Source: Methanoculleus sediminis (GTDB lineage Archaea > Halobacteriota > Methanomicrobia > Methanomicrobiales > Methanoculleaceae). From it: a DNA stretch of 64,000 nt. The position numbers and the translations under genes were made by a program. The stretch is taken from contig NZ_JXOJ01000004.1 of the NCBI RefSeq assembly GCF_001017125.1, positions 62,001-126,000 of the forward strand, in the 5' to 3' direction. The notes beneath the pieces are model-generated. The model was not told the DNA's origin. It made no database searches and saw only the letters and a list, made by a program, of their open reading frames with translations. Below, piece by piece: positions 13,549 through 44,059 of this stretch. The first letter of the stretch is position 1. Every line of letters begins with the position of its first letter.

Positions 13549-14994
13549 TCAGAGCATGCCGGGCCAGGGGACGCCGAGACCTTCGGTCAGCTCCTTCAGT
13601 TCGTCGTGGATACCCCGGTCGATCTTGAGGAGGACCAGGATATAGACCAGCCCGCCGACCGCGACCGCTCCGAGGACGACGAAGACGTTCGTGAGAGGGA
13701 CGACGAACGAGTAGGCCGCAACAACGGCACCCATCACGAGCGCGGCGAGGACGATGTGCCCCACTGCTCCGCGCTCAATCCGCACGTGGATGCTCCGGGA
13801 GAGGGCGCGATGGGCGAGCGTCGCGTTCAGCACCATGGTCGCGAGCGTGGCCGCCGACGCCCCGACGATGCCGTAAGCCGGGATGAGGAGGATGTTCAGG
13901 CCGATGTTGATGATAACCGCGACTGCCGTTACCCTGAACGAGTCACGCGGCCGGTCGAGGGCGTTCAGGCACATCGTCTGGAGGAACATGAAGACGTGAG
14001 CTACCTGGACAAGCAAAAGTATCGAGAGGGTTGTCGCCCCGGCGGTGGCTGACGCCGTGTAGAAGAAGTAAAGGAGCCGCTCGCCGAGGAGCCATCCACC
14101 GGCGAGGACGGGAACCGCGAGCAGGAGGGAGTAGGTGAAGGCACGGGCAAGCGCACGCTCCACCAGAGGGAGTTCGTCCTGTTTCCCCCAGAAACTGACC
14201 TTTGGATAGAGAGTGGTATGGAACGCTACGGTGACGAACGTCGCAATAGAGGTGAGCTGGAGCGCCACGCGGTAGATGCCGACGTCGGCATCGGTCAGGA
14301 AGTAACCGATCAGGATGGTGTCGGCATACGAGAAGACGAGGTAGCCGCTCGCACTGAGAAATGTCCAGAACGAGAAGGCAAAGAGACTCTGAATGTGTGA
14401 TCGGCGAAATCGTGCTGGGGAGAGTTCGAGGAAACGGAAGTTGAAGAGTCCTGACGCGAGGAGCCCGGCGACGAACCCACCTGCGAGGCCCGCAACGCCG
14501 TAGCCGAGGAGGACCGCGGCGACCTGAACGACTATCCGGATCAGCGTATCAATCAGGCCGCCGATCTGGTTGACGCCGACCTTCCCGGTGCCGTAGACGC
14601 TGTATGATGCGATGTTCGTGAAGACGCTGACGACCAGCGCGATGACCAGCCAGGGAAAGACCCCCGAAGCGGTGAGATCGGTGAGGTAGGGGCGCGCAAT
14701 GAAGAGGAAGCCGACCGAGACAGACAGCAGCATCACCCGGAGAAAGAGAAACGCGGTGAAGAATGCGTTCTGGTCCTCCCCCTCGCTGATCCGCTTTACA
14801 GCAGCGCCCCCGAACCCGCCGTCTCCGATCAGGTTGAAGACGCTGAAGTAGGCGACAAAGATGAAGTACGCGCCCAGTATCGATAGACCGACGGTATGAG
14901 TGAAGAACATCGTGGAGAGAAACCCGACCGCGGTGAGGGTCAGCGTCGAGGCGAGGCTGATGACACTCTGGCGCTGGACGGGGTCGATGCGCAT
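13549..14994 (-). CDS. Oligosaccharide flippase (Wzx-like, MOP superfamily)
   Basis: This is an integral membrane protein of about 481 residues with roughly 12-14 hydrophobic helices. It has the Wzx/RfbX pattern: an early FFTHTVGLSILGAYF helix, a GDGGFGGAAVKR segment after the second helix, and an EKS-type loop near AFTYSLLLAVPVLAGG. Such proteins flip lipid-linked oligosaccharides across the membrane. It opens the glycan island and is divergent from the nucleotide-sugar genes at 15220. ATG at 14994 is preferred because the N terminus MRIDPVQRQS suits the family; a start at 15027 is possible. Confidence 0.85.
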   Translation of the reverse strand: MRIDPVQRQSVISLASTLTLTAVGFLSTMFFTHTVGLSILGAYFIFVAYFSVFNLIGDGGFGGAAVKRISEGEDQNAFFTAFLFLRVMLLSVSVGFLFIARPYLTDLTASGVFPWLVIALVVSVFTNIASYSVYGTGKVGVNQIGGLIDTLIRIVVQVAAVLLGYGVAGLAGGFVAGLLASGLFNFRFLELSPARFRRSHIQSLFAFSFWTFLSASGYLVFSYADTILIGYFLTDADVGIYRVALQLTSIATFVTVAFHTTLYPKVSFWGKQDELPLVERALARAFTYSLLLAVPVLAGGWLLGERLLYFFYTASATAGATTLSILLLVQVAHVFMFLQTMCLNALDRPRDSFRVTAVAVIINIGLNILLIPAYGIVGASAATLATMVLNATLAHRALSRSIHVRIERGAVGHIVLAALVMGAVVAAYSFVVPLTNVFVVLGAVAVGGLVYILVLLKIDRGIHDELKELTEGLGVPWPGML

Positions 14995-15219
14995 GACACG
15001 GGCAAGATACCCGGAGGGGCGGAACACAAGCAGTGGTTTCGCCGTGAGAAGCCTTATTGCTTTTGAACCGGAGAGGAGGCGGCTATGATCCGGCAGGGCG
15101 GATGTTCCTGTCTCGATACGGGAGCCGCGATAACGTCATAGCAGAGCGGTGCCAATGTATAGTATCACTATTCAGTAGTCCGGTAAAGGGCACGTTACAA
15201 TACTATCGGTGGTGAGATA

Positions 15220-17585: not shown

Positions 17586-18665
17586 ATGAAAATCGCATCG
17601 ATTGTCGGCGCCCGGCCGCAGTTCATCAAGTGCGCTCCCGTCTCGCGGGAGCTCAGGAAAGAGCACGAGGAGATCCTCGTCCACACCGGGCAGCACTACG
17701 ATCACGGCATGTCGGAGGTTTTCTTCGAGGAACTCGCGATACCGAAGCCCGACTACAACCTCGGCATCGGCTCCGGGACCCACGGCCGTCAGACAGGAGT
17801 AATGCTCGGGGCGATCGAGGATGTTCTTGAAAGGGAGAAGCCCGACGTCGTTCTGGTCTACGGCGACACGAACTCGACCTTCGCAGGCGCGCTTGCGGCG
17901 GCGAAACTCCATGTGCCGGTGGCGCACGTTGAGGCGGGGCTCCGGAGCTTCGATCGCCGTATGCCCGAAGAGCTGAACCGGGTGCTGACCGATCACGCAT
18001 CTGACCTCCTCTTCTGCCCGACGAAGACCGCCGTTGCGAACCTCGCCGCCGAGGGGCTCACGAGGGGGGTTCACCTCGTCGGCGACGTGATGGTCGATGC
18101 GATGAACTACAACCGCTCGATCGCGGAAGAGCGCTCCCGGGTCCTTGAGGAAGTCGGTGTCGGGCCGGGGGAGTATCTCGTCGTCACCGTCCACCGGCCG
18201 TCGAACACGGATGATCGCGAAAAAATGGTCGCCATCCTCGGCGCGCTCGGAGAGGCCGGGAAGCCGGTCGTCTTCCCGGTTCATCCCCGGACATGGAAGT
18301 GCCTCACAGGATACGGCCTTCTTACGAAGATGCCGGAGAACATCCGGGTCGTCGAGCCGCTCGGCTACCTCGACATGATCCGCCTGACGGCGCACGCGGA
18401 AAAGATCCTCACCGACTCCGGCGGCGTCCAGAAGGAGGCCTACATGCTCGGCGTCCCCTGCATCACCCTCCGGGAGAACACCGAGTGGGTCGAGACGGTC
18501 GAGACCGGGTGGAACGTGCTTGTGGGGGCGGAGAAAGGAAGAATTACAGATGCTATCCGGCATTTTTCGCCAGGCGTGCGGCAGAGGAACCTCTTTGGGG
18601 ATGGGAACGCCAGTGTTCTGATCGGGAAGATCCTTACCCGCCACCAGAATACCCGATCCGGGTAA
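17586..18665 (+). CDS. wecB: UDP-N-acetylglucosamine 2-epimerase (first copy)
   Basis: This enzyme interconverts UDP-GlcNAc and UDP-ManNAc without NAD. Family signatures are VGARPQFIK at the start, HTGQHYDHGMSEVFFEEL, VYGDTNSTFAGALAA, HVEAGLRSFDRRMPEE, and LTDSGGVQKEAYMLGVPC near the end. It has 359 residues and is intact. It follows wecC by 2 nt in the same operon. A second wecB-type gene lies at 30723 in the same island; this copy is the one physically linked to wecC. Confidence 0.92.
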   Translation: MKIASIVGARPQFIKCAPVSRELRKEHEEILVHTGQHYDHGMSEVFFEELAIPKPDYNLGIGSGTHGRQTGVMLGAIEDVLEREKPDVVLVYGDTNSTFAGALAAAKLHVPVAHVEAGLRSFDRRMPEELNRVLTDHASDLLFCPTKTAVANLAAEGLTRGVHLVGDVMVDAMNYNRSIAEERSRVLEEVGVGPGEYLVVTVHRPSNTDDREKMVAILGALGEAGKPVVFPVHPRTWKCLTGYGLLTKMPENIRVVEPLGYLDMIRLTAHAEKILTDSGGVQKEAYMLGVPCITLRENTEWVETVETGWNVLVGAEKGRITDAIRHFSPGVRQRNLFGDGNASVLIGKILTRHQNTRSG

Positions 18666-18853: not shown

Positions 18854-18949
18854 CTCCCGAAGGACAGTTGGAGTCGTTCAGCCCCCTCATTTGTGCCCGG
18901 TGATACCGGGGAAGGTCCCGGGCAGGGGGGCGCAAACGAACTCCGGATT

Positions 18950-20107
18950 ATGCGTATCTGCATGCTCACCACTACTCACCTCCCCCACGACGGGCGGATA
19001 TTCGAGAAAGAGGCAAAGAGCCTTGCAAAGGTGCATGATGTCACGATCATCGCCCCTTCGGACGGAGAGGGCCTTCGGGAGGATGAAGGCGTGCAGATTG
19101 TCTGCGTCCGAAAACCCTCTTCAAACTTCCTCCACCCCCTGACCCTCTGGCGGGCGTTTTGGGCATGCCTGAGCCGGGAGTGCGACGTCATCCACTGCCA
19201 TGAGCCCGATGCCCTCCTCATCGGCGTCCTTACGAAGTTTCTCAAAGGGCGGCGAGTCGTTTACGACATCCACGAGCACTGGCCGAGCGAGATCCCGTAC
19301 GATATCGGAGTCAGGAATGGGACCTTCTTCACAGGGTTGCTCGAATCCCTGCTTTCCAGAGGGGAGGTCCTGCTGGCACGATTCGCCGATGCAAAGATTG
19401 CCGTCAGCGAGAGCGTCGCGGAGCGGTTCGGTCGGAACGGGGCGGAGCCTGTGATTGTATCCAATTATTCGGTTGCCGGCTCGGTGCCGCCGGCGCCGCA
19501 GGCAGGACGCAGCCGCAACCTGGTCTACATGGCCGGAAACATGCAGTTGTTTCACGGCATCAGGGAGTGCATCCAGGCGATGTCGATCGTGGCGGCAACG
19601 TTTCCCGACGCCTCCCTGACGCTTGTCGGGAATGTCCGCGAGGATATCGGTGCGATCGCGGCGAAGACGGATCCGAGACCGGCGATCACGATGACTGGCT
19701 ACCTTCCTTACCGGGAGATGTACGAGACCCTGCGCGAAGGCAGCATCGGCCTCCTCGTCTTCCAGCCCGACTACTACAACGCGTACATCGGCCTCCCGAA
19801 CAAGCTCTTCGACTACATGCTCTGCGGCCTTCCTGTCGTTGCGAGCGACTTCCCGGAGATCCACAAAGTGGTCGGCGACGCTGATTGCGGGGTGCTGGTC
19901 GATCCGACAAACCCGGATGCGATCGCCTCCGCGATCGTCTACCTGCTCGAGCATCCGGACGAGGTGCGGAGGATGGGGGAGAATGGGCGGAAGGCGATTC
20001 TAGAGCGGTATAACTGGGGGGAGATGGAGAAGAGGCTGCTCGGGGTATACAGGCAGGTTGAGGAGGCGGGAAGGGGCGATCGATTCCGTGGCTGCAAAAC
20101 AGGATAA
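18950..20107 (+). CDS. Glycosyltransferase family 4 protein
   Basis: This GT-B fold transferase of about 385 residues begins MRICMLTTTHLPHDGRIFEKEA. It has the N-terminal HDGRIFEKEAKSLAK pattern and a C-terminal donor-binding half with IGLPNKLFDYMLCGLPVVASDFPEI and an ERYNWGEME tail. The donor and acceptor are unknown. ATG 18950 is chosen by comparison with family N termini; the reading frame extends further upstream without a better start. A decayed relative of its last 60 residues lies at 24664-24845, which suggests duplication within the island. Confidence 0.82.
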   Translation: MRICMLTTTHLPHDGRIFEKEAKSLAKVHDVTIIAPSDGEGLREDEGVQIVCVRKPSSNFLHPLTLWRAFWACLSRECDVIHCHEPDALLIGVLTKFLKGRRVVYDIHEHWPSEIPYDIGVRNGTFFTGLLESLLSRGEVLLARFADAKIAVSESVAERFGRNGAEPVIVSNYSVAGSVPPAPQAGRSRNLVYMAGNMQLFHGIRECIQAMSIVAATFPDASLTLVGNVREDIGAIAAKTDPRPAITMTGYLPYREMYETLREGSIGLLVFQPDYYNAYIGLPNKLFDYMLCGLPVVASDFPEIHKVVGDADCGVLVDPTNPDAIASAIVYLLEHPDEVRRMGENGRKAILERYNWGEMEKRLLGVYRQVEEAGRGDRFRGCKTG

Positions 20108-20260
20108 TTCCGGCCCTGACTGGTGCTCCTATCTCTCGCGTGCAAGATACCCGGCTTTCGCTGTAGATTCCCGGGTTATCACACGAACAGCATCGCTCCG
20201 TGTGGACACGCCTGCCGCAGGGTTGCATGAGCTCGTTTGGCAAAGTCTGGAGGAACTCAC

Positions 20261-21268
20261 GTGAAGGAGCAAACAAGGATATTTCTGGTATCTCCATCCC
20301 CCTCAACATTCACACAACGCGATCTCGAGGCAATCAGACGGGAATACCTGGTCCGGGAGGCCGTCATCAGCAACTACCAGGGGAGAAACGGCCTGAAGCG
20401 CTCTTTTCGGATTGCATTCGAGATCCTTCGGGGGGTCCTCTGGGCCGATCTCACTTACTCCTGGTTCGCCCACAACCACTCCTACCTTGCCGTAATGCTG
20501 GCAAACCTCCTCGGCAAGAGAACTGTCGTCGTCATCGGCGGATACGAGGTCGCAAGAGAACCGGAGATCGGGTACGGCGCCCTCCTCGACCCGAAACTTG
20601 CAAAACGAGTGGATTACATCATCCGGAACGCCGATCACATCCTCGCGGTATCGGAGTTCAACAGGCGGGAGATACTGGAATTGAGCGAACGCCGCCACGT
20701 TGCCGTCGTCTACAACGGCATCGACTGCACACAATTCTGCCCTGACGAGGAGAAAGAAGATCTCATCATCACTGTCTGCCAGATCAGCCGGAGTAACATT
20801 ACGCTCAAGGGTCTCGATACGTTCCTTGAGACTGCGAAACGCCTCCCGGACCTCCGTTTCGCCGTCATCGGCCGCGATCTTGACGGGAGCATCGAGGATC
20901 TGAGACGGGGCGCCCCACCGAACGTTGAGATTATTCCATCCTCTTCTCAGGGCGAACTCCTGCAGTGGTACCGCCGGGCAAAGGTCTACTGCCAGCTCTC
21001 CTACCGGGAATCGTTCGGCGTAGCACTTGCCGAAGCGATGTCCTGCGAATGCGTCCCCGTGGTGACGGACAGGGGCGCCCTCCCGGAGGTGGTGGGTGAC
21101 GTGGGGTTCGTGGTGCCGTACGGGGATGCGGAAGCAGCGGCGGCGGCGATAGTAAGGGCGTCGCAATCCAGCGGGGGGAAGGCGGCGAGAGCAAGAGTTG
21201 AGAAGGAGTTCTCTCTGCAAGAGAGGGTGCAAAAGATCCGGAGCGTCATTGAGGAAAAACCTGTATGA
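20261..21268 (+). CDS. Glycosyltransferase family 4 protein
   Basis: This predicted 335-residue protein has a short N-terminal half (VGSP-like opening RIFLVSPSPSTF, then VVIGGYEVAREPEIGYG) and a Glycos_transf_1 half with VVYNGIDCTQFCP, KGLDTFLETAKRLPDLRF and SYRESFGVALAEAMSCECVPV. GTG at 20261 has GGAGG 8 nt upstream, which decides against the TTG at 20237. It follows the previous glycosyltransferase by about 150 bp and is convergent with the gpsA-like gene. Confidence 0.82.
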   Translation: MKEQTRIFLVSPSPSTFTQRDLEAIRREYLVREAVISNYQGRNGLKRSFRIAFEILRGVLWADLTYSWFAHNHSYLAVMLANLLGKRTVVVIGGYEVAREPEIGYGALLDPKLAKRVDYIIRNADHILAVSEFNRREILELSERRHVAVVYNGIDCTQFCPDEEKEDLIITVCQISRSNITLKGLDTFLETAKRLPDLRFAVIGRDLDGSIEDLRRGAPPNVEIIPSSSQGELLQWYRRAKVYCQLSYRESFGVALAEAMSCECVPVVTDRGALPEVVGDVGFVVPYGDAEAAAAAIVRASQSSGGKAARARVEKEFSLQERVQKIRSVIEEKPV

Positions 21269-21361: not shown

Positions 21362-22339
21362 TCAGGGCGCTTTCCTGATGAGCGTATCGACCGATTCCCG
21401 CACGTTGTTGTTCCCGCTCAGGACGTCGTAGACGAATCGTGCGATGGGCATACCGATATTATGGTTCTTGGCCAGCTCAACTATCCCTTTAACAGATCTC
21501 GAGCCTTCGAACGTTACGCCTGACTCCAGGTAAGGGGTTTTTACGATCTTCTTTCCGACCATCAGCCCCAGTGTCCGGTTGCGGCTTTTATCTACGTTAG
21601 CGGTCAGGCTGAAATCCCCAAAGCAGCAGAATTTTGTGAATATATCCTCATCAAGAGAAATAGCCTTTAGAAATGTGCACATCTCCTTGTAGCACATGTT
21701 CAGGAAGGTGTAGTGTTCGTTATGGTTGCCGTAAACTGAATCCCACATCCCCGTGCCGATGGCGTATACGTTCTTCAACACGCCGCATAACTCGACCGCC
21801 CTGAGGTCATCCGAAAAATCCAGGATGAATTCACTGAACATATCCGACATTGTTGTTCTCAGTAACGGATCGTCGTCGACGCCTATCGTAGCGCCGGCGA
21901 TATGGCCGTAGGCGATCTCATCGGCGAAGGTCGGTCCCGAGAAACAGGCCAGATCCGGGTTGCCGGTTTCTTCGCGAATAATTTCGCTCATCGTTTTGAG
22001 CGACGGGTACTCCAGCCCTTTGGCTACCGTGATGAGGATCTTGCCGGTAAGTTCGTCGTGGGTAGCGTTAACGATAGCTCGAACCTCGCTGGAGGGCACA
22101 GCGATGATTACGGCCGCACAGTCCGCGATATCCAATCTATCGCTCATCAATCTTGCACGGATATTTGGGTTCAGGCGCAGGCCCGGGAAGTAACGTTTGT
22201 TATAATTGTCGGTGTTTATCGAATCGACAACCTCCTGTCTCCTCCCGAACACGATCACTTCTCCGGCCCTCCTGGATATGCTCTGCGCAATGGCGGTGCC
22301 CATGCTTCCGGCGCCGATGACCCCGACGGCCGGTATCAT
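21362..22339 (-). CDS. gpsA: GpsA-type NAD(P)-dependent glycerol-3-phosphate dehydrogenase
   Basis: This predicted 325-residue protein has the Rossmann motif GVIGAGSMGTAIAQS, the catalytic-lysine helix VLKNVYAIGTG, and the substrate segment GDFSLTANVDKSRNRTLG that matches the GpsA pattern. GpsA makes sn-glycerol-3-phosphate from dihydroxyacetone phosphate. Archaeal lipids use the opposite enantiomer, sn-glycerol-1-phosphate, made by an unrelated enzyme, so this gene probably serves a surface polymer. Its ATG overlaps the nucleotidyltransferase stop as TGATG. GC content is lower than in the flanking housekeeping genes. A related hydroxyacid or polyol-phosphate substrate is possible. Confidence 0.78.
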   Translation of the reverse strand: MIPAVGVIGAGSMGTAIAQSISRRAGEVIVFGRRQEVVDSINTDNYNKRYFPGLRLNPNIRARLMSDRLDIADCAAVIIAVPSSEVRAIVNATHDELTGKILITVAKGLEYPSLKTMSEIIREETGNPDLACFSGPTFADEIAYGHIAGATIGVDDDPLLRTTMSDMFSEFILDFSDDLRAVELCGVLKNVYAIGTGMWDSVYGNHNEHYTFLNMCYKEMCTFLKAISLDEDIFTKFCCFGDFSLTANVDKSRNRTLGLMVGKKIVKTPYLESGVTFEGSRSVKGIVELAKNHNIGMPIARFVYDVLSGNNNVRESVDTLIRKAP

Positions 22340-23085
22340 CAAAACCGCCCCCGTGCACCGACGGCTATGCCCGCAATGCTCTCGGCATACCTGAGGTCCC
22401 GGATATCGTCGATTTCCGTCCATTTCAAGCCGTTCGTGAACGAGTATGCAAGGTTCCCGCTCTTTGACAGGGACTGGTAGATGAAATCGTAGTAGTTATT
22501 CGGGTTGCCTGAAACCAGGATATCCAACAGCCTTTTTACTTCGCCGATGTCCCTGCCGGCGACCTTCGAGATGCCGATAAACTCTCCGGTTGCTCTTTCT
22601 ACCGGGACGGTTTTTCCCATCTCTTCAATCCGGCCGTCTACTATTTTCACTTTAAACGACTCTTCCGTGAGCGGCTTGGTATCGTCGACCGTGATCGCGG
22701 TCTGATGTATCTTCAATAAATTGTCCAGGATAGCACGATCGTACAGCACGTCGCCGTTAAAGATGACGACATCGTCATGTATGTCGGATAGCCCGATATG
22801 GAGGGAATAGGCTGTGTTTGTCGAGAGGTAGTCGCCATTGCGAACCGGATTGAGCCGAACGTCATAGGTTTTCTCCAGTTTCGTGCAGGTCTTCCGAACC
22901 ATATCCGCTTTGTACCCGACGACGATGGTGATCGCGTTTACATCGAAGGATGCCAGATCCGAGACCATTCGTTCCAGTAGAGTGCAATTGTCGATTGTAA
23001 GCAGGCATTTCGGGCCGATTTTCTCGAGATCGATGTCTCTGCCCAATCTTCGCCCACTCCCTGCTGCCAGGATTATGCCGATCAA
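22339..23085 (-). CDS. Sugar- or polyol-phosphate nucleotidyltransferase
   Basis: This protein of about 248 residues has the NTP-transferase opening IGIILAAGSGRRLG, the lysine in IGPKCLLTIDN, and the metal aspartate in DDVVIFNGDVLYD. It looks closest to LicC/choline-phosphate-type or glycerol-phosphate-type cytidylyltransferases. Placed between gpsA and a TagF-like gene, it is a candidate CTP:glycerol-phosphate cytidylyltransferase (inference; TagD itself is a different fold). TTG 23085 is chosen because GGTG precedes it and a TATA box sits about 50 bp upstream; the frame stays open to 23373, but that extension has no family character. Confidence 0.68.
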   Translation of the reverse strand: MIGIILAAGSGRRLGRDIDLEKIGPKCLLTIDNCTLLERMVSDLASFDVNAITIVVGYKADMVRKTCTKLEKTYDVRLNPVRNGDYLSTNTAYSLHIGLSDIHDDVVIFNGDVLYDRAILDNLLKIHQTAITVDDTKPLTEESFKVKIVDGRIEEMGKTVPVERATGEFIGISKVAGRDIGEVKRLLDILVSGNPNNYYDFIYQSLSKSGNLAYSFTNGLKWTEIDDIRDLRYAESIAGIAVGARGRF

Positions 23086-23130
23086 GGTGAAACACCGATC
23101 CGGTTTATCGAGGGTTACACACACCTCCCG

Positions 23131-23140
23131 GTTATAAGAA
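23131..23140 (-). promoter_or_regulatory. TATA box for the nucleotidyltransferase-gpsA pair
   Basis: The minus strand reads TTCTTATAAC, about 50 bp before the proposed TTG start. This supports a short leader and argues against the long upstream extension of the frame. The rest of 23141-23425 shows nothing recognisable. Confidence 0.4.
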
Positions 23141-23425
23141 GATTTGTCTGATGGTTGTGTGTAGCAACCCTGCGTTGTTGGGGTACTTTCAACGGCCTGC
23201 AGGCCTCCGGCATGTCTCGTTCGGAGTGATTCTATGTCGAGTTCTGCCGTGCGGGCCATACCGGGCCGGAAAGCGGCACGGCTTTTCCCGGACGGAATTG
23301 TTGATGAACTGTATTCGACAGATGCATGAGTACCTGGATGCGAACGCAATGAGCGTGAGCACCGGATGTGCAAGCAGGTCTCCTCCCTCCGCCGGATGAT
23401 CCCGGGACGGCCTTACCGGATCACG

Positions 23426-24613
23426 TTAGCGCTGCTCGATCAATCTACAGACTCTTTCGCATGCGAAACCGTCCGCGTGCCTGAAAACCAGCCTTCGCAG
23501 CCTGATCCTCTCCGGTTTCCATCTGTCCTGGTCGGTGAAGGAGTTCGTAAGCGCTTCTATCAGTTCATCGATACTGGTGGAGACCTCCCCCGGTGCCCAG
23601 TCGTGAAACGGTTCGAGAATGAAACCTCTCTGCTTCCGGTAGTCATCAATGTCGGGTACGTGGAAGACGATAGGTCGGTTCAGGTGAAGGTAGTCGAAGT
23701 ACGCCGACGAGTAGTCGGTAACGAGAATATCGACGGCGTTCAGGAAGTCGTAGATGGTATTACCGGCTTTCCGCAGGCCATCATTCAAGAGTATGTGGAT
23801 ATGCTCTCCATTGTACGCCTGAAACGCATCCTCGTCGTGGGAGTGAGGTTTGCAGATGAACAGCAGGCTCTCATCCGCTATGAACCGGCGAAACTTCTCG
23901 CTTGCAAGGATCTCTTCGAGAATTTTACGGCTCGCACCGGCATCGTACTCCCGGAAGGTGGGGAGATACAGCAGGATCTTCTTTTCAGCAATATCGCCCC
24001 GACCAAGAATACGGCACAGTACGCCTACCCCGGAATCCCGGGGACTGTAAAGAGCATCGCAGCGGGGTTGTCCAAAGATCAGGATTTTCCCGGGATCGAT
24101 CAGGAACGCGGAAGAGAAGACCAGCCGCTCGAACTCCGAGGTTGTAATGAGGTAGTCCACGGAACTCGCAAATCGCCGCAGTCTGTATCCTGCGGAGAGC
24201 CTTGCAACGGCGTTCGGGTAGTCGATATCGGCAAAGTACCCGATCGTCTTCAGCGGGAGACCGTGCCATAATTCGATGCTGACCTGGTTTCCGGCCTTCC
24301 AGGCGGGTGTGCCGTGGGTGCTGACGATGTACTTTGCCGTCAGCGCGTGGTAGATATACTCGCGCGATCGGCGGATAACGTGGTTTGCGCGAATGGGTGA
24401 ATAAACGCACCAGATAAGTTGATGAGTATTACCGAAGCCAGATTCGAGCATTCTATCGTAGATGTATTTTGCGTTGTCTGAGTAGTCGGGTGCCGAAAAG
24501 AACAGGATTTTACGTTCGTCTTTCGGTATGAACCGGGACAGTGTCGAAAAAATGAGTGTAGCAATATCATAGGCCACCGATCGAATGCCATTGACAATAT
24601 CGTGAGAGACCAT
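23426..24613 (-). CDS. CDP-glycerol:glycerophosphate glycerophosphotransferase (TagB/TagF-like)
   Basis: The 395-residue protein carries the hallmark segments of teichoic-acid polymerases and primases: SIELWHGLPLKTIGYF (catalytic histidine region), KILIFGQPRCDALY, ILLYLPTFREYD, and VTDYSSAYFDYLHLNRPIVFHV. These enzymes transfer glycerol-phosphate from CDP-glycerol. Only one catalytic domain is present and no long N-terminal extension, so it could be a primase (TagB-like) or polymerase (TagF-like). It is on the same strand as and 340 bp upstream of the nucleotidyltransferase-gpsA pair, making a plausible complete glycerol-phosphate module. Ribitol-phosphate or another polyol is possible. Confidence 0.8.
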   Translation of the reverse strand: MVSHDIVNGIRSVAYDIATLIFSTLSRFIPKDERKILFFSAPDYSDNAKYIYDRMLESGFGNTHQLIWCVYSPIRANHVIRRSREYIYHALTAKYIVSTHGTPAWKAGNQVSIELWHGLPLKTIGYFADIDYPNAVARLSAGYRLRRFASSVDYLITTSEFERLVFSSAFLIDPGKILIFGQPRCDALYSPRDSGVGVLCRILGRGDIAEKKILLYLPTFREYDAGASRKILEEILASEKFRRFIADESLLFICKPHSHDEDAFQAYNGEHIHILLNDGLRKAGNTIYDFLNAVDILVTDYSSAYFDYLHLNRPIVFHVPDIDDYRKQRGFILEPFHDWAPGEVSTSIDELIEALTNSFTDQDRWKPERIRLRRLVFRHADGFACERVCRLIEQR

Positions 24614-24663
24614 CGGATCGAGGAGGGTATACCTACATTCTCATTGTTTAAGTAAACGGTTGA

Positions 24664-24845
24664 GGGTTGCTGATTGATCCGGCGGTTCCGGATGCGGTTG
24701 TCTGCCCGAGCACCTGGATGTGGACGCGGAGGATGAGGAAAACGATCGGAGGGCGGTTCTTGAGAGGTATAACTGGGGGAGATGGGGGGAGACTGTTCGA
24801 GGTGTACCGGGGATCGAGAGACAGGCGGAAACTGTTTGGGTCTGA
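24664..24845 (+). pseudogene. Frameshifted remnant of a family 4 glycosyltransferase C terminus
   Basis: Read across frames this stretch gives LIDPAVPDAV, then EHLD, then RRAVLERYNWG, then VYRG. The intact glycosyltransferase at 18950-20107 ends with LVDPTNPDAI, EHPD, RKAILERYNWG and VYRQ in the same order. At least two frameshifts and a small deletion break it, and there is no N-terminal part. It is the only recognisable thing in the gap 24614-25250 apart from promoter sequences. Confidence 0.65.
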
Positions 24846-25135
24846 CAACGACCGGAAGATCTCCGGATTTCTTGCGCTTTCCACCTCGAGAACCGGTATC
24901 CTCGGGATTGCTGCCTGCATGCCGCTTGGGAGCTCGCGATCATGCTTCCGAGGGATGATCGTAAGGTCATGAATTTGCTGGGATGATCACGATCACGCCG
25001 CCTGGTACCGGTGCCCCGCCGACCTCGTCAGTCCCCGATCAAAAGCGATCCCATTCCTTGATTCTTGATGACTCGCATCATAACCGGCTGAGTCTACCTT
25101 TTATTTCCAACAATGTTGATTTTATGCTATAATTG

Positions 25136-25149
25136 GATAAAGTATAAGT
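25136..25149 (+). promoter_or_regulatory. TATA-containing element GATAAAGTATAAGT (copy 2)
   Basis: This is identical over 14 nt to the element at 18840-18853 and lies about 105 bp before the deacetylase start, nearly the same distance as copy 1 from its gene. It may be a shared promoter of the glycan operons. Confidence 0.5.
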
Positions 25150-25250
25150 TAATACCTGTCAAATCCATTTGTTCGAGTCAGCGTATTCTGGAACCTTCGG
25201 AACCCCGGCGGACATGCAAAGGCCGTACCTCCAAGGAGAGGCACATACAC

Positions 25251-26651
25251 ATGATTGGGATACATTATGACGATGAGTATGCGGTTGAAGAAGTTTTTCA
25301 GTTACTGAAGGTTCCCTGGGAGTGGTATAGCCCTTCATCTGTTTACGATGTTGTCATATCAAAAAACAACCACATTCCAGAAGCCTGCAACGTAATTGAC
25401 CTGACAGAAAATGATATACTGAAAAAGATTGCCGATACGCTCAATGAGGGGCTTCCGCGTAACCGTAAACCGATCTGCGAAGAGTACCTGGACGCGTTGC
25501 GCCAGCAGATCAAGCGTTTCTCTCCGCTGATAGAAATTCCGCCAATCCCCTGGGGATATACCTACTCGCTTGCACTCACGCACGATGTTGATATTGCCTC
25601 TGTCAGGGAACGATCTCTTTTATCCGTCCTCTATGCGACCTACAATTGCTTTCTTCAACGGAGGTTTTTCGAGGGAGTCAAAATCGCGCTCGCGAAATTC
25701 GACCTTGCAAAGGACCCCTGGGACCTCTTCGAGACCTGGAGAGTGCTTGAGGAGAAGGATCAGGTGAAATCCACGTTTTACTTCCTGCCCCAGAACGGTC
25801 ATGCGGGGATCGGGTCCCCGCAGATTCGTGCCGGATACTACTCAATCGATGATGTTCCGATCGAAGAATTGACTGCCGGCGGCTGGGAAGTAGGGGTTCA
25901 CGGCATAGATAACTGGATTGATAAAGCCAGCGCCGCTGCTGAACGCATGTCGCTTCCGGGGGATGCAAGAGTCAGGGTGGGCACACGCGTACACTGGCTG
26001 CATTTCGATGAAGGCACGTGGCAGATCCTCGATGATGCGGGCTATGAGTATGATTCAACATTCGGATACAACGAGGACGTTGGATTCCGGGCCGGGACGC
26101 TGCAGGTTTACCGGCCCCGGGGGGTTGAGAGGCTGCTGGAACTCCCTCTCCACATCCAGGACGTCAGCCTGTTCGGGAGGCACTGCTGGCTTACGACAGA
26201 GAGGGGGTGCGAAAGGGCAGACTGTCTGGGTCTGGATGAGGGGGAGGCGTACCGGACCTGCAACGAGATCCTCGATCAGGCGTTGCAATACGGCGGTGTC
26301 GTCACGGTTCTCTGGCACAGTGACTGCCTGGCTGCCCCCCGCGACTGGGGTGGTGTTTATACGGGTATCATCAACAGGGCAAAGTCAGACAACGCCTGGG
26401 TAACCCGCGCAGTCGATATTGTCGACTGGTTCAGGATGCGCCGTAATGCCAGGTTAGAATATTCGAAGACCAAAGACGGCTTCAAGATCACGGTTGCAGG
26501 TCTCGAGCCGGCCCGGTCGTTGCCGCCGTTGCGTATCCGGGTTCACATCGATCCGGAGCGGGTTCAGCATGTCGATGCTGAGTACATCTGCGGCGAGGGG
26601 TATGTGGATATCAGGTGCGATAGAGAGCAGGTGGGTGTGGTTTTTACATGA
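25251..26651 (+). CDS. Polysaccharide deacetylase (NodB-like) family protein
   Basis: This protein of about 466 residues has an N-terminal alpha/beta region and a central carbohydrate esterase 4-like domain. Motifs seen are LALTHDVDI (paired aspartates), GWEVGVHGID (histidine motif), YDSTFGYNEDVGFRAGT, and GGVVTVLWHSD near the end of the barrel. It lacks a signal peptide, so it may act on a lipid-linked or cytoplasmic intermediate rather than outside the cell. ATG 25251 follows AAGGAGAGG at good spacing. It heads a four-gene run in which each gene overlaps the next. Confidence 0.75.
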   Translation: MIGIHYDDEYAVEEVFQLLKVPWEWYSPSSVYDVVISKNNHIPEACNVIDLTENDILKKIADTLNEGLPRNRKPICEEYLDALRQQIKRFSPLIEIPPIPWGYTYSLALTHDVDIASVRERSLLSVLYATYNCFLQRRFFEGVKIALAKFDLAKDPWDLFETWRVLEEKDQVKSTFYFLPQNGHAGIGSPQIRAGYYSIDDVPIEELTAGGWEVGVHGIDNWIDKASAAAERMSLPGDARVRVGTRVHWLHFDEGTWQILDDAGYEYDSTFGYNEDVGFRAGTLQVYRPRGVERLLELPLHIQDVSLFGRHCWLTTERGCERADCLGLDEGEAYRTCNEILDQALQYGGVVTVLWHSDCLAAPRDWGGVYTGIINRAKSDNAWVTRAVDIVDWFRMRRNARLEYSKTKDGFKITVAGLEPARSLPPLRIRVHIDPERVQHVDAEYICGEGYVDIRCDREQVGVVFT

Positions 26652-30265: not shown

Positions 30266-30722
30266 TTGTTGGTGGCTGTAGTGGAGATCTCCGAGATATC
30301 ATCACCGATTGCCCGGAAGGCATTGTACCTATTATTATATGGGGGATCTTATATGTTTAGGACGACCTCTATTTTAGAAGGGCCGTCTCGACATCTCTTT
30401 ATTTACCCAGTCAGTGGATTGGCATCAAGCGTCCTGTTGGTAGTACTCGCATGCACTGCGCCGGATGAGAGGGCTCTTTATGCCTGGGAGATGATATCTT
30501 TCAACAGGGACAGATGCAGGAAGAGGGGCACGAAAATCCTTGTATCGTGTAGATGGATCCATTCCCGCCTGGTATGGATTCATCCCTGGGCCACTTATTC
30601 GGGGTAACGGGGCCCAATCCCCTGTTGAGTAACCTCGACGGTGCGAGCTGTCCGAGAACGTATCTGATAGGTTGAGATATGCACATAGCTACCCTGTGAC
30701 ATCCATAACCGGAGATAAGAAT

Positions 30723-31796
30723 ATGATTGCCGTTGTTCTGGGGACCCGGCCGGAGATTATCAAGATGAGCCCGATAATCCGGCTGTTAAGGGAGAGGCGG
30801 GCAGACTACTTCATCGTTCATTCCGGACAGCACTATTCCTATGATATGGACAAAATATTTTTCGAAGAGTTGAGGTTGCCCGTGCCGGAGTTTCATCTGG
30901 ACGTGGGTTCGGGGAGCCATGGTGAGCAGACCGCAAAAATCCTCACCGGAACGGAGAGTGTTTTCTTGCAAGAGAAACCGGACACGGTGCTGGTCCAGGG
31001 AGATACGAATACAGTCCTTGCAGGAGCTCTGGCGGCGGTGAAACTGCATATCGATGTCGGGCATGTGGAGGCCGGACTCAGGAGCCATGACCGGAGGATG
31101 CCTGAAGAAATTAACAGGATCCTCACCGATCATATGTCCGAATACCTGTTCGCGCCGACCCGGGAGTCGAGGGATAACGCCGTCCAGGAAGGGATCCCCG
31201 CCGACAAGGTATACGTCACCGGGAACACCATCGTCGACTCCGTGCAACAAAATCTTCAGATTGCAGAAGATAACCGGGGCATACTTGACAGGTATTGCCT
31301 CGAGCGGGGGAAGTATTTTCTGGTAACCGCCCATCGGCAGGAGAATGTTGACGACAGATTCCGGCTGCGCAACCTTCTCAAAGCGCTGGAGGCGCTTCAC
31401 GAGGAATACTTGATGCCGATCGTTTTCCCCGTACACCCGAGAACAAAGAGGAGAATGCAGGAGTACCAACTCGAAGTACCGCACAACGTTACCATCATCC
31501 CCCCCACCGGCTTTCTGGAGTTTTTAGTCCTAGAAGCGAATGCACGTCTGGTCCTGACCGATTCCGGAGGCGTGCAGGAAGAGACCTGCATCTTAAAGGT
31601 ACCCTGTGTCACCCTGCGTGAGAATACCGAGAGACCGGAGACGATCGAGGTTGGATCAAATATCCTTACAGGTATAACTCCTAAGGAGATCCTGCAGGCA
31701 GTCGAGATCATGCTTGAGGGAGAGGCAAACTGGACGAATCCCTTCGGAGACGGGCGTGCTGCGCAGCATACTCTCGATTTCATCCGTAATGGATGA
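30723..31796 (+). CDS. wecB: UDP-N-acetylglucosamine 2-epimerase (second copy)
   Basis: This 357-residue paralogue of the enzyme at 17586 has the same signatures: VLGTRPEIIKMSP, HSGQHYSYDMDKIFFEEL, VQGDTNTVLAGALAA, HVEAGLRSHDRRMPEE, LTDSGGVQEETCILKVPC. The two copies differ in many positions, so it is not a recent duplication. ATG 30723 has GGAGAT 7 nt upstream; earlier in-frame starts add an unlikely N terminus. It stands alone next to the IS remnant, convergent with a glycosyltransferase, and may feed a different UDP-ManNAc-using glycan. Confidence 0.9.
   Translation: MIAVVLGTRPEIIKMSPIIRLLRERRADYFIVHSGQHYSYDMDKIFFEELRLPVPEFHLDVGSGSHGEQTAKILTGTESVFLQEKPDTVLVQGDTNTVLAGALAAVKLHIDVGHVEAGLRSHDRRMPEEINRILTDHMSEYLFAPTRESRDNAVQEGIPADKVYVTGNTIVDSVQQNLQIAEDNRGILDRYCLERGKYFLVTAHRQENVDDRFRLRNLLKALEALHEEYLMPIVFPVHPRTKRRMQEYQLEVPHNVTIIPPTGFLEFLVLEANARLVLTDSGGVQEETCILKVPCVTLRENTERPETIEVGSNILTGITPKEILQAVEIMLEGEANWTNPFGDGRAAQHTLDFIRNG

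Positions 31797-42782: not shown

Positions 42783-44059
<1,277 letters not shown>

Follow-up and report, generated by a model that had tools for sequence, protein, structure and literature searches.

Archaea need sn-glycerol-1-phosphate (G1P) for their membrane lipids. What, then, does Methanoculleus sediminis do with a gene for a sn-glycerol-3-phosphate (G3P) dehydrogenase that lies beside a TagF-like glycerophosphotransferase gene? The two flank a nucleotidyltransferase gene in the stretch of 64,000 nucleotides analysed here (the window, whose numbering is used below), from a genome of 2.49 Mb that is 99.97% complete. An original prediction, made from the sequence alone, had placed the three genes together on one strand within a glycan island. 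All were found there on the reverse strand (PF04464, NTP_transf_3/NTP_transferase, and the N- and C-terminal NAD_Gly3P_dh domains), surrounded by genes for glycosyltransferases, sugar-nucleotide enzymes, and a flippase-like protein. The best explanation, and in our view a probable one, is that they form one cassette leading from dihydroxyacetone phosphate (DHAP) through sn-G3P and cytidine diphosphate (CDP)-glycerol to glycerol-phosphate on a surface glycan. Its parts are as follows.

23426–24613, reverse strand: TagF/TarF-like CDP-glycerol:glycerophosphotransferase, 395 amino acids (PF04464)
22339–23085, reverse strand: PntC/IPCT/LicC-type cytidylyltransferase, 248 amino acids, TTG start (Pfam NTP_transf_3/NTP_transferase); cytidine triphosphate (CTP) and sn-G3P are its proposed substrates
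21362–22339, reverse strand: GpsA-type NAD(P)H glycerol-3-phosphate dehydrogenase, 325 amino acids (PF01210/PF07479)
23132–23137, reverse strand: TATA-like box TTATAA, lying within CCAAATNTTCTTATAACC in most loci, from the aligned upstream regions of eight loci

The trio recurs. Among 150 genomes of the order, with GpsA counted above cut-off, cassette-type GpsA occurs in 13, comprising 11 of the 29 of the genus, where its distribution is patchy, one other of the family, and one of another family. The nucleotidyltransferase lies directly upstream of GpsA in 13/13, and TagF lies within ~3 kb in 11 of the 12 judgeable loci and at ~9 kb in the remaining one (G016); the thirteenth genome (G112) is split across contig ends and was left out of this distance count. 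Two loci (L023 and L020) hold a TagF of divergent lineage (34–36% identity) with a dehydrogenase still 71–73% identical, so the set is apparently kept though one member has been exchanged. With the proviso on TagF distance, the joint recurrence that the original prediction proposed to look for in other archaea was thus found in the order, and also in a fourteenth case from a distant archaeal family of the phylum (G168, locus L090). There the order is cytidylyltransferase-GpsA-TagF, with a GpsA inside the same clade (support 100/100) and a cytidylyltransferase from another lineage. All members of this GpsA clade that we found overlap or directly follow a cytidylyltransferase gene. The genes stand in the same order and next to each other in further genomes too, and the arrangement is thus confirmed as real rather than a product of chance.

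The gpsA start at 22339 falls inside the cytidylyltransferase stop codon (a TGATG overlap), seemingly as in translationally coupled genes. The position of the TTG/GTG start of the cytidylyltransferase is kept across eight loci, as is the TTATAA box ~47 nt 5′ of it, a probable promoter of the cytidylyltransferase-gpsA pair. A nucleotidyltransferase start at 23373 (a 344-amino-acid reading frame) was rejected because the extension upstream of TTG 23085 is not kept in relatives, and comparison also led us to reject a 353-amino-acid GpsA frame in favor of 325 amino acids from 22339.

Enzyme families and predicted substrates

The dehydrogenase matches both GpsA Pfam domains well (N- and C-terminal, 115 and 110 bits against cut-offs of 23 and 25) and is the sole PF07479 protein in the genome. 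When aligned with GpsA of T. maritima and C. burnetii it keeps the Lys (SKG), Lys (LKN), Asp (GD), Thr, and Arg-Asn residues that, going by known GpsA structures, we take to act in catalysis and substrate contact. GpsA enzymes yield sn-G3P, the presumed product of the cassette clade. For G1P the genome has EgsA, a G1P dehydrogenase (513 bits against a curated cut-off of 413). Neither the glycerol kinase GlpK nor the acyltransferase PlsY was found in the genome, so sn-G3P from GpsA would have no evident use besides the cassette. These family matches and retained substrate residues, and the failure to find another source of G3P in the genome, uphold the original prediction of a dedicated G3P dehydrogenase. 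The cytidylyltransferases Cps3B and Cps7B can take both glycerol-phosphate enantiomers (PMC8262930), and enantiomer specificity may therefore be set by supply.

The transferase matches Glyphos_transf (PF04464) over profile positions 2–366 of 367 (249.6 bits against a cut-off of 22.1, E 6e-74). Its closest solved structure is Staphylococcus epidermidis TagF (SeTagF; E 1.2e-26), and alignment shows that residues corresponding to SeTagF H444 and H584 (WHG and KPH motifs; numbering counted along the SeTagF sequence) are kept in the window protein and its relatives. We assume from TagF structure work that both are catalytic. In length (395 amino acids) the protein is similar to TarF, and it misses the NCBIfam equivalog cut-offs for TarF (103 vs 550 bits), TarL (79 vs 1000), and TarB (38 vs 500). 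The genome holds no second PF04464 protein and no match to the TagA/WecG linkage-unit transferase (PF03808). The protein predicted as a TagB/TagF-like polymerase is supported as an enzyme of the TagF type that keeps the two catalytic histidines; the polymer itself does not follow from a short single protein with no TagA and no second Tag transferase found. Nor is a wall location implied, as the Methanoculleus envelope consists of an S-layer and lacks peptidoglycan.

The nucleotidyltransferase has PDB sequence matches only to LicC, PntC, and IPCT, at ~17–25% identity. An AlphaFold model built from an alignment of 12 sequences (predicted local distance difference test score 88.4) has PntC, T. 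maritima IPCT, LicC, and A. fulgidus IPCT as its best Foldseek matches. CTP enzymes of this type take ranks 1–10, and sugar nucleotidyltransferases, which have the same fold, mostly rank lower. Since PntC, IPCT, and LicC are the closest folds, the substrates are likely CTP, its specificity read from these fold neighbors, and a phosphorylated alcohol. The suggestion that this enzyme supplies CDP-glycerol therefore holds as to a cytidylyltransferase rather than a sugar type, with glycerol-phosphate as the proposed substrate; fold and gene neighbors alike render improbable an activity on nucleoside diphosphate-sugars only, the reading that structure prediction was to check. As for TagD/TarD, the protein belongs to NTP_transf_3 and is without a PF01467 (HxGH) domain. 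The genome has three PF01467 sites, one best classed as adenylyltransferase-type, one NadM-like by eye (43553–44059), and a third untyped. An inositol-phosphate role was rejected for the cassette, where there is no CDP-alcohol phosphatidyltransferase and the clades are separate in the cytidylyltransferase tree; that tree is long-branched and weakly supported at many forks, and only its well-supported groups were used.

Genomic neighbors and glycerol-phosphate

A set of 30 full-length TagF (PF04464) homologues came from 393 genomes of the phylum, and 20 of them have a cytidylyltransferase relative no more than 3.5 kb away, where ~0.1 would be expected assuming roughly one such gene per 2–4 Mb genome. 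The count was made by hand, the 30 exclude partial hits, and because related genomes are not independent the binomial value is only indicative. In haloarchaea the cytidylyltransferase and TagF are adjacent (L078, L079, L083; Halorussus plasmid). GlpA is the anaerobic G3P dehydrogenase, and in family f7 the cytidylyltransferase gene overlaps or adjoins that of a flavin adenine dinucleotide enzyme whose best match is GlpA, with TagF near (L082, L091–L094). GlpA family scores are 264 bits in L082 and 284 bits in L085, from a further family, neither of which reaches the cut-off set for the longer GlpA. An archaeal TagF in L098 (4624–7228) adjoins a TagD-type domain (108 bits vs a cut-off of 165) fused to a GFO/IDH oxidoreductase. 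Three haloarchaeal loci (L096, L100, L101) bring together TagF, a cytidylyltransferase-like protein, and one further protein, which in the two tested (L096 and L100) is a glycerophosphodiester phosphodiesterase (GDPD). On Streptomyces fungicidicus plasmid p1 (L107, 6001–7802) a cytidylyltransferase relative overlaps, and is followed by, a homologue of the G1P dehydrogenase (PRK00843, 230 bits vs a cut-off of 413). Because non-homologous dehydrogenases for the same small molecule adjoin one cytidylyltransferase family, these neighborhoods point to glycerol-phosphate as its substrate.

These and other loci have further features. CDP-alcohol phosphatidyltransferases also adjoin the Streptomyces pair, which is a mirror image of the archaeal pairing with a G3P dehydrogenase. 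The cytidylyltransferase-like protein of L096 is fused to a HAD-IIA phosphatase domain. One contig of G168 carries both L090 (cytidylyltransferase-GpsA-TagF) and L082 (cytidylyltransferase-GlpA-like-TagF), ~10 kb apart and with cytidylyltransferases of different lineages. In another family of the phylum (L095, 4595–7647) a cytidylyltransferase fused to a class I aminotransferase lies 12 bp from a TagF homologue, and an amino-alcohol phosphate perhaps takes the place of glycerol there. A Verrucomicrobial cluster (L039, 7107–11680), read by eye as a phosphoenolpyruvate mutase-like and cytidylyltransferase fusion, a decarboxylase-like protein, a PntC-type protein, and an aminotransferase, looks like aminoethylphosphonate activation. 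On a Dinoroseobacter plasmid (L117, 2941–6358) GpsA lies beside a HAD hydrolase and glucosylglycerol-phosphate synthase, where G3P again seems to be supplied specifically for one special product.

Proposed pathway and competing explanations

In favor of reading the cassette as a pathway, GpsA stands beside a PF04464 enzyme as a dedicated source of G3P for which no partner in lipid synthesis or glycerol catabolism was found. We infer its substrates, enantiomer, acceptor, and surface location as follows. GpsA would reduce DHAP to sn-G3P, and the LicC/IPCT/PntC-type enzyme would join this to CTP, giving CDP-3-glycerol. The TagF-like protein would then move glycerol-3-phosphate from CDP-glycerol to a surface glycan, as a decoration or a chain, with the acceptor made by the neighboring glycosyltransferases. 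Membrane lipids would use the other enantiomer, which EgsA makes independently of the cassette. The chances are about even, in our judgment, for the more specific proposal of a self-contained archaeal CDP-sn-3-glycerol route that has a LicC/PntC-type enzyme for TagD and feeds a surface glycopolymer in which glycerol-phosphate is of the handedness opposite to that in the cell's lipids.

The alternative that survives best, though we consider it unlikely, is a CDP-activated alcohol other than G3P, such as another short polyol phosphate made by the GpsA-like reductase from a different keto-phosphate and moved by TagF. Several observations weigh against the glycerol-phosphate pathway, some of them in favor of this alternative. 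The dehydrogenase falls under the NCBIfam curated subfamily and equivalog cut-offs (best 213 vs 257 bits) and its clade has N-E-H-Y for the canonical N-A motif, so another keto-phosphate is a possible substrate. No database labels the nucleotidyltransferase a glycerol-phosphate enzyme, and since some of its relatives adjoin aminotransferases or inositol-phosphate synthases the family is not glycerol-specific. TarL, also a PF04464 protein, moves ribitol-phosphate, and both families handle several alcohols. The shortness of the TagF-like protein, which is without a TarB partner, means that a polymer is not implied by sequence. However, the catalytic and substrate residues of GpsA are all kept, and elsewhere relatives of the cytidylyltransferase pair with non-homologous glycerol-phosphate enzymes, which favors G3P.

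It is much less probable that CDP-glycerol is made for a soluble compound, for example glycerophosphoinositol as in Archaeoglobus and Aquifex, or for a lipid head group, with TagF a mere neighbor. Glycerophosphoinositol made from CDP-glycerol is known in archaea, according to work cited in PMC8262930, and Archaeoglobales-type relatives of the cytidylyltransferase adjoin CDP-alcohol phosphatidyltransferases. The cassette loci, however, have no such phosphatidyltransferase, and TagF recurs beside the pair, with a divergent TagF where the usual one is missing. Least probable of all is that GpsA, patchy in archaea and maybe a transferred bacterial gene (PMC5059525), makes G3P for general metabolism (a redox shuttle or bacterial-type lipids) from an incidental position in the island, given that PlsY and GlpK were not found in the genome and that all GpsA of the clade found are joined to a cytidylyltransferase gene.

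Related systems and the surrounding island

GpsA and TagF homologues have been reported from Methanobacteria. The glycerol-phosphate pathway has the same proposed chemistry as Gram-positive wall teichoic acid synthesis (GpsA, TagD/TarD, TagB/TagF), in which G3P is converted to CDP-glycerol for PF04464 transfer with both catalytic histidines. It differs from that system in having an unrelated cytidylyltransferase in place of TagD, no TagA found, one short TagF-like protein rather than a primase and a polymerase, and an archaeal host without peptidoglycan. Gram-negative capsule systems (App3/App7 Cps3B/Cps3D; Bcs3) likewise use TagF-like enzymes with CDP-glycerol or CDP-ribitol for a surface glycan, but Cps3B and Cps7B are TagD-type and the polymerases are large multidomain proteins (PMC8262930). 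PntC, LicC, and IPCT have a fold in common with the cassette enzyme, which would also resemble them in using CTP on phospho-alcohols or phosphonates, whereas the substrates established for the three are aminoethylphosphonate, phosphocholine, and inositol-1-phosphate rather than glycerol-phosphate. Campylobacter jejuni HS:5 also combines a cytidylyltransferase and an NAD(P)H reductase (HS5.18/HS5.17) to make a CDP-polyol, CDP-6-D-glucitol, for a surface glycan (PMC10918830), but there an SDR reduces CDP-6-fructose after activation, while the cassette GpsA is expected to act before it.

Teichoic-acid-like genes in a methanogen were published in 2010 for Methanobrevibacter ruminantium (PMC2812497); strain M1 likewise has a TagF homologue and a proposed glycopolymer (PMC2812497, PMC5816558), but differs in having pseudomurein. 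GpsA is listed in Methanomicrobia, with no role stated in the relevant passages of PMC5059525. Our search, light on subscription journals, found no relevant literature for Methanoculleus and CDP-glycerol. Provisionally, the coupled trio, the G3P supply in an organism with G1P lipids, and the non-TagD cytidylyltransferase appear to be new.

The island spans ~20–38 kb, where G+C drops from ~0.62 to mostly 0.47–0.56. Two features that flank the cassette belong to glycosyltransferase family 4 (GT4).

20237–21268, forward strand: GT4 glycosyltransferase, downstream of the cassette and convergent to it
24660–24850, forward strand: decayed copy of a GT4 3′ end in the cassette flank (blastn)

Most loci of the genus that carry the cassette have a GT4 gene like that at 20237–21268 next to it, and the enzyme is a candidate acceptor builder. 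More broadly, the flippase-like protein (13549–15027) and the GT4 enzymes are candidates for glycan building and export. The scrap at 24660–24850 corresponds to the 3′ end of the GT4 gene at 18893–20107 (77% over 112 bp, E 3e-15), is associated with direct repeats D1 and D2, and is a possible recombination scar. Comparable remnants lie next to TagF in L018 and L025, suggesting that recombination took place at those loci as well, and the patchy cassette together with the GT4 scrap fits an exchange of island genes between strains. Viral contigs yielded no cytidylyltransferase relatives, and in plasmids the searches for the three proteins reached only remote relatives (~31–34% identity at best), so no bacterial donor was identified. 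Elsewhere in the island are two UDP-N-acetylglucosamine 2-epimerase-like genes (17586–18665 and 30672–31796, assigned by mutual similarity and by eye) and a gene for a 512-amino-acid protein without a Pfam match (25113–26651; weak match to the VimE deacetylase, 44 vs a cut-off of 440 bits).

Reading the trio as one cassette would give a specific job to the puzzling G3P dehydrogenase of some methanogens with G1P lipids. The two glycerol-phosphate enantiomers may thus occur side by side in a single archaeal cell, each in a pathway of its own. The cassette enzyme is also a candidate for a further family of glycerol-phosphate cytidylyltransferases, and the presence of teichoic-acid-like polymers in archaea becomes open to a direct test, by comparing Methanoculleus species with and without the cassette. 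If the self-contained route to CDP-sn-3-glycerol is real, the use of a GpsA-type dehydrogenase in some archaea and of a GlpA-type one in others would imply that this pathway has been put together more than once.

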